From NCBI RefSeq assembly GCF_030291135.1, contig NZ_CP127409.1:2108001-2172000 (forward strand): a stretch of DNA of 64,000 nt. Reading direction: 5' to 3'. Both the position numbers and the translations under genes were made by a program. The stretch is from Rhodanobacter thiooxydans. Its GTDB lineage: Bacteria; Pseudomonadota; Gammaproteobacteria; Xanthomonadales; Rhodanobacteraceae. The notes beneath the pieces were generated by a model. That model did no database searches. It saw nothing but the letters and a program-made list of their open reading frames with translations, and was not told the origin of the DNA. This document shows, piece after piece, positions 52,223 through 60,022 of this stretch; the first letter of the stretch is position 1; the number at the start of each line of letters is the position of its first letter.

Positions 52223-53902
52223 TCATTTCGACGGCGGCGCAGCCGGCTTCATCATGGCATCGCGCGTGGCCTTGAACGGATTGCCGGCATACCACTGCGG
52301 CCACACGCCCGCCTGGCTGAGGTGTCGGCCCAGTTCGTACAGCGCCTGGGTATCTTCAAGGATGCCTTCCAGGTTCCAGTGCGGATCGAACACGTCGTTC
52401 GTGGTGTGGTAGCGGTGCGCCGTATAGTCGTCGGCCGCCTTCTGGCCGGCGGCCCTGCCGCCATCGCGCAGGTCGAGGCCCGAACTGGCCAGCATCGCCG
52501 GCACGCCGGCCCGGGCGAAGTTGAAATGGTCGGAGCGGAAGTAGAAGCCGTTCTCCGGCGTGGTCTCCGGCGAGATCACCCGACCCTGCTTATGCAACAC
52601 GCCGGCAAGCATGTCCTCCAGCTCGGACTGGCCCTTGCCGATCACCGTCATGTCGCGCGCCGGGCCGATGACCGGCAACGCGTCGACGGCGATGTCGGCC
52701 ACCGTGCGGTTCAATGGAAAGATCGGCTTCGCCGCGTAGTACTGCGAACCGAGCAGGCCCGATTCCTCCAGCGTCGGCATGAAGAACAGCACGCTGCGCT
52801 CGGGCGGCCGCGCCTGGTGCGCGAACGCATCGGCGATCTGCAGCAGCATGCTCAGGCCGGTGCCGTTGTCGATCGCGCCGGCATAGACCTGGTGGCCCTG
52901 GCGGGTCGGGTCGGTGCCCAGATGGTCCCAGTGCGCGGTGTAGATCACCACCTCGTCGGGCTTGCCGTGGCCTTCGACCATCGCTACCACGTTCTTCGAT
53001 TCGATATGACCGATCTTGTTGTGCAGGGTGATCGAGGCGGTCGCGTGCAAGGGGACCGGCTCGAAGCCCGGCTTCGCCGCGGACCGTTCGAGTTCAGCGA
53101 AATCGAGGCCTGCGGCGGCGAACAGCCGGACCGCCGCATCGCGTGTCAGCCAGCCAGCCACAGGCAACCGCGGCGATGGATCGACACTGCTCGGCAGGCT
53201 CAGCTGCGGCCCGACCGCGCCGTTCTGCAGCACGCTCCACGGATAACCGGCCGCGGCGTCGCTGGTGTGCACGATGAAGCAGGCGGCAGCGCCCTGCAGC
53301 GCCGCCTCCGCATACTTGTACGGCCAGCGGCCGTACCAGGTCATCGCGCGGCCGTTGAACAGCTTCGGGTCGCGGCTGGCAAAGCCGGGGTCGTTGACCA
53401 GCACGATCACCGTCTTGCCCTTCACGTCGACACCCCGGTAGTCGTTCCAGTGCCAGGCCGGCGCATCCGCGCCGTAGCCGAGGAACACCACCGGCGAATC
53501 CTTCAGCGCGATCTCGGCTTTCGCCTGCAGGGTCTGCACCACCATGTCGGTGCGATACGCCAGCTTCAGCGACTTGCCGCCCGCGGTGACGTCCAGGCTG
53601 ACATCGGTGTTCAGCAGCAAGGTGGAGTCGGCCGGCACGGTCTGGAACCACGAGCCGTGGTTGCCCGGCTGCAGGCCCATCCGCTTGAACTCGGCCACCA
53701 GGAAATCAGTGGTGCGCTGTGCGCCGATCGTGCCGGGCTTGCGCCCGCCGAACGCATCGGAGCTGAGCGTCTGGTCGAAGCGGGCGAAATCGGCGGCGTT
53801 GATCGACGGCGCTCGTGTCGTGTCCGGTTCAGTCGTCGCCGCCTGCAGCGGCAACGCGGCCAGGCCCAGCGCAACCATCAGGGTGAAATTCCTCACTCGC
53901 AT
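52223..53902 (-). CDS. Secreted M28-family aminopeptidase
   Basis: 559 residues from ATG 53902, with GGGAG 8 bp upstream. Signal peptide to about residue 21, PA-type insert (about 120-290), and the zinc peptidase core: TAHWDHLG, DNGTGLSML and LEESGLLGS hold the His, Asp and Glu-Glu set, with HRYHTTND at the end. An exported aminopeptidase. It converges on the M14 gene with 21 bp between, and is downstream of the borosin-like operon on the same strand. Confidence 0.9.
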   Translation of the reverse strand: MRVRNFTLMVALGLAALPLQAATTEPDTTRAPSINAADFARFDQTLSSDAFGGRKPGTIGAQRTTDFLVAEFKRMGLQPGNHGSWFQTVPADSTLLLNTDVSLDVTAGGKSLKLAYRTDMVVQTLQAKAEIALKDSPVVFLGYGADAPAWHWNDYRGVDVKGKTVIVLVNDPGFASRDPKLFNGRAMTWYGRWPYKYAEAALQGAAACFIVHTSDAAAGYPWSVLQNGAVGPQLSLPSSVDPSPRLPVAGWLTRDAAVRLFAAAGLDFAELERSAAKPGFEPVPLHATASITLHNKIGHIESKNVVAMVEGHGKPDEVVIYTAHWDHLGTDPTRQGHQVYAGAIDNGTGLSMLLQIADAFAHQARPPERSVLFFMPTLEESGLLGSQYYAAKPIFPLNRTVADIAVDALPVIGPARDMTVIGKGQSELEDMLAGVLHKQGRVISPETTPENGFYFRSDHFNFARAGVPAMLASSGLDLRDGGRAAGQKAADDYTAHRYHTTNDVFDPHWNLEGILEDTQALYELGRHLSQAGVWPQWYAGNPFKATRDAMMKPAAPPSK

Positions 53903-54103
53903 CAAAACGCTCCCGCCGATGAAATCGGCCACCTTTGTAGCGCGCCCCTGCACCGCTGTCCATGCGACAGGCCCCGCTGGTGATCGTCGGTGGCGGCAGC
54001 AAACGTGGGACGCAGCTGCCGCCCTGACGCCATGATGTTGCCGCCATCGCCGTGGCGGCAGCCCGGTGCGCCCGCACGGCATTCAACTGCACACGGCGGC
54101 GTC

Positions 54104-54250
54104 AAAAGGCTGATCCGGTTGCGCCCCTCGTCCTTGGCCTGGTGCCGGGCGCAGTCGGCATCGTTCCTCAGCTGCCGCAGCTCGTAACCGGAACTGGCCG
54201 CGGCTGCCACGCCGAAGCTGGCCGAGATCGGGATGCCGGGCGCATCCCCG
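54104..54250 (-). pseudogene. Relic of a GGDEF-domain C-terminus
   Basis: The minus strand reads GDAPGIPISASFGVA, then SSGYELRQLRNDAD and QAKDEGRNRISLL, which aligns with the end of the diguanylate cyclase encoded at 54337 (GDATEEICVSASFGVA, SGHDLRQLLVHADD, RAKREGRNRVSVS). The GGDEF motif and everything before it are gone, and no start is present. It is the main content of the 434 bp between 53903 and 54336; the rest shows nothing clear. Probably left from a duplication or a lost tandem cyclase. Confidence 0.75.
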
Positions 54251-54336: not shown

Positions 54337-56148
54337 TTACTGCACGCCTTCGGCCGTCACGGCAACGACGCCCAGTTGCGTTTTCGACCGGCCGTCGCTG
54401 ACGCTGACCCGGTTGCGGCCCTCGCGTTTGGCCCGATACAACGCGTCGTCGGCGTGGACCAGCAGCTGGCGCAGGTCATGCCCGGAATGCTTGGTGCTCG
54501 CCACACCAAAGCTGGCCGAAACGCAGATTTCCTCGGTGGCATCGCCGCGGACCACCTCCACGATCGCCAACCGGATCCGTTCGGTTCGGGCAAGCACCTG
54601 TTCGAGCGTGCACTCCGGCAACACAATGCCGAACTCCTCGCCACCCAGGCGGCCGAAGATGTCGGTGGAACGCAGATGCGCCTGGCAGGCGGCCACGGCA
54701 CGCTTCAGCACGCGATCGCCCACCGCATGGCCGTAGGTGTCGTTGACGGCCTTGAAGTGGTCCAAATCGATCAGCACCAGGCAGGCCTCCCGCCCCGACT
54801 TCCGGCAGTACTGCAACTGCTGCTCGGCCTCATTGACGAAATGCTGGCGGTTGAAGATGTCCGTGAGCCCGTCGCGCCGCGCCTGCCGCATGAAACGCAG
54901 CTGCGAGCGCTTGACGCGATAGGCCCAGAAAGCGATGAACGCGAGCCCGCCGAGCAGCAGCACGATGTACAGCCGGCTGGTCTCGGCGGCTTTGCGGTCC
55001 AGAGCCTGCTGCAGTTGCAGGATCTCGTTCTGCTTGCTGAGGGTATCGATCTGCAGCTTCTTGGCAGCCAGCTGCTGCTGCACAGTCTGGTAGGCGAGCG
55101 CACGGGCATTCACCGCGTTCAGGTAGCCCTTGTTGGCCAGCATGTACTGTTCGTGATACGTGAGAGCTTTGTCCAGGTGTCCCTGCTGCTTTTCGATCAG
55201 GTACAAAACACGATAGGCGATGCTGAGCGACTCCGCGTACTCGTTGCGCTTGCTCTGCTCGACGACCTCAAGAGCAAACCGTTTCGCCTTCGCCAGCTGA
55301 CCGGTACTCATGTACGCCTCGGCCAGCAAGGCGTCGAATTCGGAAATCAGTATCTGATAGTTGCTGCGCGCGACCGCGGGGTAATTGGACTCCAGCACAC
55401 GAATGGCCTCATCGGCATGGCCACGCTGGAGCGCCAGGCTGGCTACGTAAAAGCTGATGCCGTTGCCATAGACGGGATCCTTCGCTTCCGTGCAGATTTC
55501 GACGCCCTTGCGGAACTGCTCATCGATGCCTTCCAGCCTGCCGCTCTTGTAGAGCGCAGCCAGCTTGGCGTGCTCGGCCTTGCAGCTGTAGGGGCCGGGG
55601 CTTTCTTTGAATACCTGATCGGCATACTCGAAAGCCAAGTCGTATTGCCCGGCCTCTTCATAGAGGTAAGCCGCAATGACGAGGGCCTGCCCGCGTGCGT
55701 CCGGATCGGTAATCTCTGGCAACTGGGCGAGGAGCTGACTCTCCAGCTGGAACGCCTCCTCGTAACGCGATCGCTCCGCCAAGGTATTGACCTTCAGCAC
55801 CTTGGCCCGGAACAGGACAACGGCGTTGCGGGACTTCTCCAGCAGCTCACCGATCATGGTGTCGGAAGTCGGGTAATCACCGCGATAGGCCGCGCGCCAC
55901 GCCTGGAGGTAATGCAGGTAATCAACCTGATCCGGCGCCAACGCGGCGCTGTCGCCATCCAGCCGATCGAGAATCTGCTGGAACTCCCCGGGATTGGAAA
56001 GCTTGATGCCGTCCGCGCGCTTGAGCAGCGCCGGAACCTCACTCGCAGCGACGGGTACGGCCGCCAGGGCCGTACCCGTCGCAAGCAGAAGTCCCAGCAG
56101 GACAAGTCCAGCGATCACCACTCCATGTCGGTTGCCGGATGTGCGCAT
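54337..56148 (-). CDS. Diguanylate cyclase with periplasmic TPR sensor region
   Basis: 603 residues. Signal peptide or first helix (about 10-30), periplasmic TPR-like repeats (about 35-350), a coiled coil (about 355-400), a transmembrane helix (about 403-421), and a cytoplasmic GGDEF domain. The active motif is GGEEF (502-506) and the inhibitory I-site RSTD lies five residues before it, so c-di-GMP synthesis with feedback is expected. The gene starts 17 bp after the second candidate borosin precursor and is read in the same direction. A TTG at 56160 is an alternative start. Confidence 0.9.
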   Translation of the reverse strand: MRTSGNRHGVVIAGLVLLGLLLATGTALAAVPVAASEVPALLKRADGIKLSNPGEFQQILDRLDGDSAALAPDQVDYLHYLQAWRAAYRGDYPTSDTMIGELLEKSRNAVVLFRAKVLKVNTLAERSRYEEAFQLESQLLAQLPEITDPDARGQALVIAAYLYEEAGQYDLAFEYADQVFKESPGPYSCKAEHAKLAALYKSGRLEGIDEQFRKGVEICTEAKDPVYGNGISFYVASLALQRGHADEAIRVLESNYPAVARSNYQILISEFDALLAEAYMSTGQLAKAKRFALEVVEQSKRNEYAESLSIAYRVLYLIEKQQGHLDKALTYHEQYMLANKGYLNAVNARALAYQTVQQQLAAKKLQIDTLSKQNEILQLQQALDRKAAETSRLYIVLLLGGLAFIAFWAYRVKRSQLRFMRQARRDGLTDIFNRQHFVNEAEQQLQYCRKSGREACLVLIDLDHFKAVNDTYGHAVGDRVLKRAVAACQAHLRSTDIFGRLGGEEFGIVLPECTLEQVLARTERIRLAIVEVVRGDATEEICVSASFGVASTKHSGHDLRQLLVHADDALYRAKREGRNRVSVSDGRSKTQLGVVAVTAEGVQ

Positions 56149-56165
56149 TGCCCTGACCAAACGAC

Positions 56166-56441
56166 TCAGCGACTCCGGAGCTCAGGAGCCTCTTCCTCGC
56201 CATCGCGCGAGGGCGCTTCTTCGGCACCATCCTCCTGTTCCTCGCTGGGAGCCAGGAATCCGACAGCCTGAGCCATGCCCAGCAAAGCCCCCAGTCGTGC
56301 CTGATTCCCTGTACGAATGGCTTCCTGGATCGGAGGATCGAAACCCGCCGAAGTCAGTGCAAGCTCGAACTCATGCCCTGTTCCGCGGCCCAGCCGCGCA
56401 TCCTGACCGACCTGATCAAGAAATCCGACGACATCTGACAT
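56166..56441 (-). CDS. Candidate borosin precursor peptide 2
   Basis: 91 residues. The N-terminal half (1-55) is helical, with VGFLDQVGQDARL, close to the borosin-binding domain of split precursors such as SonA, which carry a GQDA motif at the same place. A short hydrophobic stretch follows (AVGFLAPS, residues 59-66), where the methylated core lies in SonA, then an acidic tail rich in Glu. GGGGAG precedes the ATG. It is a paralogue of the gene at 56537. The core boundary is inferred. Confidence 0.72.
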   Translation of the reverse strand: MSDVVGFLDQVGQDARLGRGTGHEFELALTSAGFDPPIQEAIRTGNQARLGALLGMAQAVGFLAPSEEQEDGAEEAPSRDGEEEAPELRSR

Positions 56442-56536
56442 GTGCAGCTCCCCCTAGACTTGGTGTTGGCTAGAAACAGCACACCCGGGAGAGTCGAGAT
56501 TCTTCATGCGCAGTGCGCCGCCGAATCCTTCCCTTC

Positions 56537-56797
56537 TCAGGCACGCCGTTGGTGGTAATACTCCTCGTCCCTACCCGAGTCCCGGTCAGACTGGACCATG
56601 GCAGGCACCAGCATGCAACACACGTTCTTCGCACCCGCCAATGCGGCCAGCCGAGCCTGATCCTTCGCCAGCACGGCATCGCGCACCTCGGGGTCGACCT
56701 GGATATCGGCAAGCATGCGCTGCAGCTCCCCGGCGGGGGCATAGCGCAAGCTGGCGTTCTGACCGACGTTCTCAAGAAAATCAACGATATTCGACAT
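56537..56797 (-). CDS. Candidate borosin precursor peptide 1
   Basis: 86 residues. Begins MSNIVDFLENVGQNASLRYA, the same plan as precursor 2 and SonA: a helical recognition domain to about residue 55, then the candidate core NVCCMLVPAMV (58-68) and a polar tail ending YYHQRRA. The double Cys within the core is notable and could permit extra modification. GGGAGA lies 8 bp before the start. It sits 142 bp downstream of the methyltransferase gene and 95 bp upstream of precursor 2. Confidence 0.75.
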   Translation of the reverse strand: MSNIVDFLENVGQNASLRYAPAGELQRMLADIQVDPEVRDAVLAKDQARLAALAGAKNVCCMLVPAMVQSDRDSGRDEEYYHQRRA

Positions 56798-56939
56798 GGC
56801 ATATCTCCCGGATAGTCAATGGATTGGAATGGCGCGGACTGGCCTGATTCGCGGGGGTGGAATAGTTTGCCCCGCAGCGAGGCATCAAACCGCGCCGATT
56901 CATCCTAGGGACGACGCCAACGGCAACTTGCCTACCTGT

Positions 56940-57761
56940 TCACAAAACGCCGGCATCCCGCTTGATTTCCGCCTTGTCCAGCGCGTCCAGCCGCGCGCGC
57001 ATCGCCAGGTCGGGCTGCAGCGGACCGGTCGGCGGCAACACCACGGTGTCTTCCATGCCGACCTCGGCCTGCGGCAGGTCGGCCAGCCGGATCCGGCGGA
57101 TCCGCGGCTGCTGGATCGGCAAGGTGGCGCCGCGGTAGATGGTGATCTCGTGGTCGGCCGGGTAGTCGCGCGCCAGCACCTCGACCAGCAGTTCGCGGTA
57201 GGCCGACCCGGTCGAGAAACGCGCCAGCGACTGGTCGCCGACCAGGCCCACCTGCCACAGCACCAGGTAGGCAGTCGGGTCGATCCTGCGCTTGTAGAAC
57301 AGCAGCTGGCTGGCCTCGAAGTGCTGGCAGCCGTAACGGCCCGGGTCGATGCCGAGGTCGGCGTACAGGCAGTCCTCGGCCGAGATGCCCGGTTCCATGT
57401 GCGCCTCGTAGCCTTCGCTGCGGGCGACCTCGATCGACTTGTGCGGCGCCCAGGCGAACACGCCGGGGTGGCCGTAGAACACGCCGCACACCCGCTTGCC
57501 CGCGCGCACCTCGGTGAGGATGGCCTCGACCATCTCGCGGTAGGTCTGCATGCGCGACTTGCCTTCGCGGTAGTACGGCTGCAGGCTGCGCACGTCCTGG
57601 TGCATCTTGTGCAGCCACATCTCGACGATGCCGTCGGAGAGCCCGGCGAACACCACGTCGGCCTGCTCTATGTAGCTGCGCGCCAGCGGGCCGAGGTGCG
57701 AGCCCAGGGTCATGCCCAGGCCCACGCAGACCAGGCTGCCGGGTGAAGGTGCTGCATCCAT
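56940..57761 (-). CDS. Borosin-type peptide alpha-N-methyltransferase (SonM-like, tetrapyrrole-methylase fold)
   Basis: 273 residues. Signatures shared with SonM/OphMA: GSLVCVGLGMTLG (8-20), RSYIEQADVVFAGL (28-41), YGHPGVFAWAPH (96-107), MEPGISAEDCLYADLGIDPG (122-141) and QHFEASQ (146-152). By alignment the active Tyr-Arg-Tyr-Tyr set maps to Tyr64, Arg70, Tyr74 and Tyr96. These enzymes methylate backbone amides of a partner peptide with SAM. Cobalamin or siroheme enzymes share the fold, but no such pathway is nearby and two SonA-like peptides follow directly. The core is not fused to the enzyme, so this is a split system. Confidence 0.87.
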   Translation of the reverse strand: MDAAPSPGSLVCVGLGMTLGSHLGPLARSYIEQADVVFAGLSDGIVEMWLHKMHQDVRSLQPYYREGKSRMQTYREMVEAILTEVRAGKRVCGVFYGHPGVFAWAPHKSIEVARSEGYEAHMEPGISAEDCLYADLGIDPGRYGCQHFEASQLLFYKRRIDPTAYLVLWQVGLVGDQSLARFSTGSAYRELLVEVLARDYPADHEITIYRGATLPIQQPRIRRIRLADLPQAEVGMEDTVVLPPTGPLQPDLAMRARLDALDKAEIKRDAGVL

Positions 57762-57822: not shown

Positions 57823-58599
57823 TCACTGGTTCGGTGCCGGATCGGCCTTCGCCGGAAACGCATCCATCAGCGGCTTGATCAGGTCCAGCGGCAGCGGGAA
57901 CACGATGGTCGAGGACTTGCCGCTGTTGGACATGTCAGCCAGCGTCTGCAGGTAGCGCAGCTGCAGCGCCTGCGGTTGCTGCGACAGCATCGCGGCGGCG
58001 TCGCGCAATTTCTCGGCGGCCTGCAGCTCGCCCTCGGCATGGATCACCTTGGCGCGGCGTTCGCGCTCGGCTTCGGCCTGGCGGGCGATCGCGCGCACCA
58101 TGGTCTCGTTGAGGTCGACATCCTTGAGCTCCACGTTGGCGACCTTGATGCCCCACGGGTCGGTGGCCTCGTCCAGGATCGCCTGCAGGGTGTGGTTGAT
58201 CGAGTCGCGCTGCGACAGGATCTCGTCCAGCTCGTGCTGGCCCAGTACCGAGCGCAGCCGGGTCTGCGCCAGCTGGCTGGTCGCCTGCAGAAAGTTCTCC
58301 ACCTGCAGCACGGATTTGTCGGGCTCCACCACGCGGAAATAGACCACCGCGTTCACCCGCACCGAAACGTTGTCGCGCGAGATCACGTCCTGCGGCGGCA
58401 CGTCCATCACGGTCACCCGCAGGTCGACGCGGATCATGCGCTGCACGAACGGCACCAGCAGCACCAGTCCGGGCCCCTTGGTGCCGGTGTAGCGGCCCAG
58501 CGTCAGCACGACGCCGCGCTGGTACTCCGGCAGGATCTTCACCGCGGAGAACAGCAGCAGCGCGCCGAGAATTACCAGTACACCGACGAATCCGAACAT
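57823..58599 (-). CDS. Slipin (stomatin/SPFH-family membrane protein)
   Basis: 258 residues. An N-terminal hydrophobic hairpin (2-22), then the SPFH domain ([25 protein letters not shown]-like [30 protein letters not shown]) and a helical C-terminus. It forms membrane microdomain scaffolds. AGGAG lies 6 bp before ATG 58599; ATG 58605 is too close to it. Pairs with the NfeD gene upstream, a common arrangement. Confidence 0.92.
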
Positions 58600-58636
58600 G
58601 ATCATCTCCTGCCTTTCATGAAATGGCCGCACCGGC

Positions 58637-60022
58637 TCATGCCGGCTCGACCTGCAACAGCAAGCCCTGCCGCGACACCACGCGCACCCGCGCGCCGGCC
58701 GGCAAGGCGATATCGCTGTGTACGCGCCAGCGCTCGCCGCGCACCAGCATCCACGCCTCGCCACCGGCTTCCACCGGCTCCAGCAGTTCGCCGGTGTCCA
58801 CCAGCATCGCCGAATCGCCGGTAACCGGATGGGCGCGGCGCGAACGGAACACCAGCCACACGATCAGCGCCAGCAGCGCAGCCGTGCCCATGGCGATGCC
58901 GGCGATCACGCCGAGATTGACGCCATAGCCCGGCACGCCGGTATTCATCAGCATCACCGAGCCCACTACGAACGCCACCAGCCCACCGACACCGAACGCG
59001 CCCACGCTGGGATTGGCCGCCTCGGCCACCAGCAGGCCGACGCCCAGCGCCATCAGCGCCAGCCCGGCGTAGTTCACCGGCAGCAGTTGCAGCGCGTACA
59101 GGCCGACCAGCAGGCAGATGCCTCCGGCGATGCCCGGCAGCATCGCGCCGGGATGGAGGGCTTCCAGCAGCAGCCCGAAGATGCCGGCCAGCAGCAACAG
59201 ATAGGCGATGGTGGGATTGGTGATGATCGCCAGGAAGCGCGTGCGCGCGCCGGGCGCGTATTCATGCACGGACACACCCTTGAGCTGCAGCGTGACGTCG
59301 CGATCGCCCACCTGCACCTTGCGTCCGTCCGCCCTGGCCAACAGCTCGGCCACGTCCGCGGCCACGAAGTCGATCACGTGCTGCTGCGCGGCCTCGCTGG
59401 CGGTCAGCGTGGCGGCGCCGCGCACCGCCTGTTCGGCCCACTGCGCGTTGCGCCCGCGCAACTGTGCCAGCGAGCGGATATAGGCGATCGCATCGTTCAT
59501 GACCTTGTGCGACTCGGCATCGTCGCCTGCTGCCGGCTCGTCTTTCGCGGCAGAACCTGCCGACGCCGGCGAGTTGCCGGTTTTCGGCAGCGGCGTGGCG
59601 CCCCCGAGCTGCACCGGCGTCGCCGCGCCAAGGTGGGTGGCCGGCGCCATCGCGGCGATCTGCCCGGCGTACAGGATGTACGTTCCAGCCGACGCCGCGC
59701 GGGCGCCAGCGGGGGCGACATACACCAGCACCGGCACCTTGCAGGCCAGCATGCCGGCGATGATCTGCCGCATCGAATCGGCCAGCCCGCCGGGCGTATC
59801 CAGCCGCAGCACGATCGCCACCGCACCATCGGCGACGGCACGCTTCGAGGCGTCGTCGAAGTACTCCGCGGCGGCGGGGCCGATCGGGCCATCCAGCGTG
59901 ATCTGCGCCACCATGCCATCGGCCGCGGTGCGGCCGGCAACCGTGGGCTCGACGGCAAGCACCGCCTGCATCGGCAGTGTGCAAAGAACCGCCACACAGA
60001 CCCGCCACAGCCAACGCATCAT
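58637..60022 (-). CDS. Long NfeD protein with ClpP-class protease domain
   Basis: 461 residues. Signal peptide to about residue 23; a ClpP-like serine protease domain with [14 protein letters not shown] and the Ser in [10 protein letters not shown], with Lys partner region SHKVMNDA; four to five transmembrane helices (about 265-385); and a C-terminal OB-fold NfeD domain. Known relatives cleave stomatin-like partners, and the slipin gene follows 37 bp downstream. An Ala/Pro-rich insert (150-175) lies in the protease domain. Confidence 0.9.

Follow-up and report, generated by a model that had tools for sequence, protein, structure and literature searches.

A split borosin operon of Rhodanobacter thiooxydans and the adjoining TPR-GGDEF gene, a candidate receptor of its peptides

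Type IV borosins and their broad distribution among bacteria are already known (PMC8429565, PMC11285071, PMC11395268). The closest described system is SonM-SonA of Shewanella oneidensis, for which the account of Miller et al. 2021 (PMC8429565) gives methylation of SonA by SonM at L63 and I65 and describes the roles of the SonM active-site residues considered below. In the fungal enzymes OphMA and dbOphMA the precursor is fused to the enzyme, according to the passages of PMC11285071 that treat them. The R. thiooxydans locus reported here is of the SonM-SonA kind, and its genomic context indicates one partner, a diguanylate cyclase with a TPR sensor, whose gene adjoins the precursor gene at sonM-sonA, the model locus, as well.

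The window, i.e. the whole 64,000-nt stretch of DNA that was analysed, belongs to a host genome assembled as a single 3.5 Mb contig. On its minus strand, a SonM-like alpha-N-methyltransferase (273 aa, 56940..57761) is followed after 142 nt by precursor P1 (86 aa, 56537..56797), after another 95 nt by precursor P2 (91 aa, 56166..56441), and 17 nt beyond the P2 stop by the ATG of a putative receptor (603 aa, 54337..56148), whose open reading frame opens with TTG at 56160, 5' of the ATG at 56148. The enzyme and the precursors are separate ORFs. The initial annotation had proposed a split borosin cluster with two precursors at 56166-57761. The three genes lie at the place that it gave, and its cluster reading is supported, with SonM as the best solved relative of the enzyme and a precursor profile that finds SonA; the interval contains the enzyme, P1 and P2 but ends one gene early, before the TPR-GGDEF gene. 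The sequence signatures that it listed are likewise all present, namely YGHPGVFA, MEPGISAE and FEASQ in the enzyme and the GQ(D/N)A motif in the two small paralogues (GQNA in P1, GQDA in P2). No informative promoters or terminators were recognized in the intergenic regions of the cluster. In comparison with four relatives, dN/dS was 0.08-0.21 for the enzyme, 0.14-0.29 for P1, 0.16-0.30 for P2 and 0.13-0.21 for the receptor; the values of 0.14-0.30 for both precursors in 8/8 comparisons, the SonM match of the enzyme and the precursors found downstream of all 130 close-kin enzymes (below) indicate that the locus is more than a product of chance.

Genes for SPFH (Band_7) and NfeD proteins lie immediately upstream of the enzyme (57823-60022, minus strand; Pfam). 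They were considered as parts of the module and rejected: in a clustering of the neighbourhoods of 63 enzyme entries (61 loci) their clusters occur in only 15 and 16 entries, respectively, and they are therefore treated as mere neighbours. On the other side, 3' of the receptor, an M28-family peptidase gene (52223-54082, minus strand; Pfam) is a candidate peptidase, with a cluster at a similar place in 10 of the 63 entries. A third precursor found in relatives about 2.8 kb 3' of the enzyme left no remnant detectable by tblastn in the window; in a blastn comparison with five relatives, four share a short similarity of 119-121 nt with the window at 54109-54227.

Searched against solved structures with phmmer, the enzyme matches SonM best (E 2.3e-78), followed by fungal OphMA, dbOphMA and MroMA (about 1e-47 to 1e-52), and the sole cobalamin enzyme listed among the matches reaches 0.0068. 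This is the outcome that the initial annotation had anticipated for a search of borosin against cobalamin families. Over the alignment with SonM, 129 of 251 residues are identical (51%), and six SonM residues, Y58, R67, Y71, Y93, F99 and W166, are conserved as Y64, R70, Y74, Y96, F102 and W169. Pfam names the enzyme TP_methylase only, and no NCBIfam model passes its cut-off, the best being YabN (38.6 bits versus a cut-off of 525) and eight others also falling below. The named close relatives are mostly from Rhodanobacter; the nearest among the matches listed, which may leave out the window's own record, is R. thiooxydans LCS2 with 97% identity. The enzyme is rare in the class as a whole (9/369 genomes at 1e-20, including the host genome) and is present in 101/117 Shewanella genomes. 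Two close relatives with one full-length copy also carry short enzyme fragments of 62 residues (G180:C100:1625-1810) and 27 residues (G147:C1:2670727-2670807), which suggests decay of a second enzyme locus. At seven loci (L069, L071, L074, L075, L076, L079 and L081) the gene directly 3' of the enzyme belongs to a cluster of 11 entries; its L069 member is a GNAT acetyltransferase (Acetyltransf_3, 3.7e-24) and thus a possible further tailoring enzyme.

Neither precursor passes the cut-off of any Pfam or NCBIfam model, so that the labelling predicted by the initial annotation, under which such a locus is easily missed, is what these databases return. Searched alone against PDB chains with phmmer, P1 misses SonA and P2 matches it weakly (0.28); a profile was therefore needed. 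Profile A1, built from 45 precursors with SonA left out, finds SonA at 1.2e-6, ungapped over SonA 1-60, and scores P2, itself a member, at 8.6e-24. The structure model of P1 is a five-helix bundle like SonA, its top structural match, and P1 thus has an N-terminal borosin binding domain (aa 1-55), followed by the core NVCCMLVPA. The segment CCMLVPA (aa 60-66; 56600..56620, minus strand) was placed by the ungapped profile alignment, extended by residue count, and by the column counts of class A, one of two core classes (A and B) that we separated by a pattern of our own definition at residues 3-9. P2 has the binding domain, the core VGFLAPS (aa 60-66; 56244..56264, minus strand; register as for P1) and an acidic tail. 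In both, Leu63 aligns with the methylated Leu63 of SonA, and residue 65 is Pro in place of the methylated Ile65, which leaves no possibility of N-methylation at the second SonA site. Pro65 is found in 64/67 ungapped class A precursors, as are C60 in 59/67 and C61 in 43/67. P2 lacks the cysteines usual in class A cores, and in the close relative L057 it has Phe65 and a different tail; P2 may therefore not be kept everywhere and may be decaying in that relative. In view of these features, the proposal of the initial annotation that methylated peptides are made from both genes should be taken with caution. Two other precursors are multi-core: in L113 a DKDEEEIR-type unit is repeated about four times, and in L076 the core is repeated together with part of the helical domain.

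The possibility that the enzyme is a tetrapyrrole methylase beside unrelated small ORFs would agree with the Pfam name and with the presence of YabN, cobalamin and siroheme-type models in the NCBIfam results. All of those models fall far under their cut-offs, SonM is a far better match than the cobalamin enzyme, the borosin active-site residues are conserved, and both the precursor profile and the P1 model match SonA; we reject this alternative as scarcely credible and regard the borosin identification of the locus as practically certain. The enzyme probably methylates the backbone of the two small peptides, as judged from these similarities.

The more informative part of the locus is the receptor gene. 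Its product combines a signal-like segment (residues 14-32), a 360-aa TPR domain (54979..56058), a membrane helix (residues 395-413; 54922..54978) and a GGDEF domain (54409..54879; Pfam 2.8e-44) with an intact GGEEF motif and an RxxD motif, all on the minus strand; it probably makes c-di-GMP. The best TPR model of Pfam, TPR_12 (7.4e-6), stays under its gathering cut-off, and the domain is modelled as a superhelix (pLDDT 93.6, pTM 0.87). Cys159 and Cys189 of this domain are invariant in an alignment of 70 sequences. An N-terminal hydrophobic segment was found in 44 of 65 receptors, and for the 21 without it a wrongly early start codon of the ORF is possible. The predicted topology places the TPR domain on the periplasmic side. 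In structure comparison, known peptide receptors are among the TPR superhelices of similar shape, and APPBP2 and a subunit of the APC/C, which are unrelated in function, match as well or better; the sequence-profile list is headed by MalT and LGN. The host genome encodes 26 GGDEF domains and two TPR-sensor matches, one at each of its two enzyme loci.

Conservation of this arrangement was counted over unique enzyme sequences, because the locus sets L054-L113 and L114-L193 overlap and their raw counts are redundant. Among 155 such sequences, 152 come with 2 kb or more of downstream DNA; 130 of these are close kin, with scores of 300 bits or more against the window enzyme. A precursor-profile match lies downstream on the same strand in 130/130 close-kin cases, and a GGDEF homologue in 128/130 (127 with the TPR part), as compared with 12/125 upstream and 2/130 on the other strand. 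One of the two misses, L091, has the gene after all, within a frame whose opening lies more upstream; the other, L156, is without a receptor. The neighbourhood clustering gave the receptor cluster in 58 of the 63 entries, and clusters other than those of enzyme, precursor and receptor reached 19 entries at most, so that there is no constant exporter or peptidase neighbour. Among the 22 more distant enzymes, twelve (L268 and eleven loci of Shewanella) have a receptor downstream, three form a fusion with it and one (L269) adjoins a TPR hybrid kinase; in the remaining six (L111, L270-L274) neither binding domain nor receptor was found by the queries used, and the module is therefore not general to the enzyme family. 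In Shewanella, enzyme, precursor and TPR-GGDEF gene occur in a row at all 18 loci fetched, sonM-sonA included. At one of these loci, L250, the enzyme shows 100% identity to SonM across the 254 residues used in the search, and the precursor matches SonA over the 65 residues compared. In another, L252 (7347-9145), a frame change splits the receptor between its TPR and GGDEF parts. Across 147 genomes of the family Rhodanobacteraceae, the enzyme and the TPR sensor are present in the same 91 genomes (Fisher's p 5.6e-42, not corrected for shared descent) after setting aside weak (G015, G057, G061, G071, G083, G085; E 2e-5 to 4e-4) and fused-type (G098, G109, G130) matches from 100 enzyme genomes and the borderline G130 (9.6e-11) from 92 TPR-sensor genomes.

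The sensor follows the precursor also where an intact enzyme is missing from the neighbourhood. At 20 hand-picked TPR-GGDEF loci without an intact enzyme nearby, a precursor is immediately upstream in 19, including two that are not clean (L210, with the precursor in two frames, and L217, with a 63-aa enzyme remnant), and L207 has none. For 160 distinct receptor TPR domains, mostly from enzyme loci, a precursor ends within 313 nt upstream in 150 cases (median 92 nt). In L108, L109 and L110 (genomes G130, G109 and G098), a signal-like segment, TPR, GGDEF and a C-terminal borosin methyltransferase occupy one frame behind a SonA-like precursor, with the domains checked by Pfam for L108. At L268 and L269 the precursor is adjoined by a TPR protein with histidine kinase and receiver domains at its end, with a weak TPR similarity at L269 (6.9e-6) and an additional TPR-GGDEF gene at L268. 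Further precursors occur some kb downstream at L055, L056, L057, L060, L061, L065, L066 and L073, several of them followed by their own TPR-GGDEF gene. A mirror-tree analysis of 131 pairs gave a partial correlation of 0.53 between the TPR and binding domains and of 0.29 between TPR and core, with 0/999 permutations reaching the correlation, which is confounded by linkage and shared descent.

A sensor that adjoins the precursors in nearly all close relatives suggests that the peptides may act as signals. We lean slightly toward the reading of the locus as a type IV split borosin operon whose peptide would be the ligand of the adjacent TPR receptor, the methylation, export and binding of which we infer. 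It is very likely that the receptor is a functional partner of the precursor; that the peptide itself is the ligand appears evenly balanced at the level of sequence comparison. In the proposed sequence of events, the enzyme would bind the binding domains of P1 and P2 and methylate the backbone at or near Leu63, while Pro65 would already provide a tertiary amide, which in SonA arises through methylation of Ile65. A peptidase would then free a short core peptide, which would reach the periplasm or the outside by some route, bind the TPR superhelix of the adjacent receptor and thereby alter the cytoplasmic synthesis of c-di-GMP. A single enzyme may act for more than one precursor-receptor pair, including pairs encoded elsewhere in the genome. 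We tentatively extend this, a little short of an even chance, to a ribosomal peptide pheromone system feeding c-di-GMP. In such a system every precursor would be paired with a periplasmic TPR receptor of its own, in most cases a diguanylate cyclase but occasionally a hybrid histidine kinase, and a single methyltransferase could serve several pairs in trans.

Several points speak against a peptide ligand. A signal peptide was seen in no precursor and no exporter or peptidase is constant, yet a periplasmic orientation is expected for the TPR domain. The modelled superhelix is matched as well or better by the unrelated APPBP2 and APC/C subunit, the sequence-profile list is headed by MalT and LGN, the six divergent loci appear to lack the module, close-kin L156 has no receptor, and the TPR match of L269 is weak. 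N-methylation is said in PMC8429565 to favour membrane permeability, and it is a matter of speculation that this could bear on export. A pepsin-type enzyme (PF00026) was considered as the maturation peptidase and rejected: a homologue was found in 9/9 Shewanella genomes tested, but neither in the host genome nor in five others outside Shewanella. Shewasin A reportedly cleaves a borosin precursor.

The receptor could instead control the cluster, its TPR domain sensing an environmental or envelope cue and its c-di-GMP or kinase output switching borosin production on or off. Tight synteny, co-occurrence and the swapping of output domains would suit a dedicated regulator equally, but the sensor stays with the precursor at 19/20 loci that have no intact enzyme nearby, further precursors at six loci (L055, L056, L061, L065, L066, L073) have a GGDEF copy of their own, and known peptide receptors share the shape of the superhelix; we consider this control unlikely, though a serious competitor. 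Distinctly less probable is that the precursor itself, through its binding domain or acidic tail, interacts as a protein with the receptor of its own cell, with methylation only tuning the contact and no peptide released. The lack of a constant peptidase or exporter gene and the stronger co-variation of the TPR domain with the binding domain than with the core (0.53 versus 0.29) agree with such a partnership, whereas the TPR domain, by its predicted extracytoplasmic position, is out of reach for a precursor that is not exported, and the pepsin homologue of the Shewanella genomes is in keeping with the cleavage reported for shewasin A. We give a similarly low weight to an ordinary split borosin with an antibiotic or metallophore-like product, for which the diguanylate cyclase would be a passenger or serve in self-sensing or immunity. 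The cysteine-rich hydrophobic cores of class A do look selected as a product; the finished-product borosins named in the literature excerpts are, for their part, fungal (omphalotins, gymnopeptides). Conservation across genera, fusion to the enzyme and retention beside the precursor without the enzyme would hardly be expected of a passenger, and the neighbourhood includes no constant gene for export or resistance.

With the peptide-ligand reading still preferred, the enzyme and precursors add new members to a known kind of borosin, and the precursor-receptor module is the new part, although an earlier mention of the adjacency, for instance in Imani 2022 or Cho 2022, is possible. Full-text literature searches returned no paper joining borosins with diguanylate cyclases or c-di-GMP, and one paper containing both borosin and GGDEF, the latter in a classification figure legend (PMC11395268). 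The main text of PMC8429565 contains none of the words 'GGDEF', 'signal' and 'operon'. If correct, the proposal would link RiPP modification to second-messenger signalling and provide many precursor-receptor pairs for comparison; since the partner gene is present at sonM-sonA, the question is testable in a laboratory strain.

The locus resembles SonM-SonA of S. oneidensis (PMC8429565) in the separate enzyme and precursor, the 51% enzyme identity with all six residues conserved, the ungapped precursor register over SonA 1-60 and the TPR-GGDEF gene directly downstream. It differs in having two precursors, with cores CCMLVPA and VGFLAPS versus YLVISHG in SonA, Pro at the second methylation site and a long acidic tail in P2. 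With a second Shewanella borosin family (about 51-53% to SonM), it shares a core of the type VVCIxLPAED, an acidic tail and the downstream TPR-GGDEF gene; the genomes of that family have a pepsin homologue, whereas no pepsin-family gene was found in the host genome or two other Rhodanobacter. The Figure 1 legend of the borosin type classification (PMC11395268) names GGDEF among the architectures, and that legend assigns it no type and mentions neither TPR, signalling nor adjacency; the fused proteins of L108-L110 may represent this GGDEF type. The methyltransferase domain is homologous to that of fungal OphMA and dbOphMA (about 1e-47 to 1e-52). We know of no GGDEF partner for these fungal proteins. 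The RRNPP receptors (Rap, NprR, AimR) of Bacillota and their phages are cytoplasmic regulators with phosphatase or DNA-binding (HTH) output; the TPR superhelix is common to both systems, whereas the TPR domain found here is predicted to be periplasmic and its output is a membrane-bound diguanylate cyclase, which sets the receptor apart from the cytoplasmic output that defines the RRNPP group.
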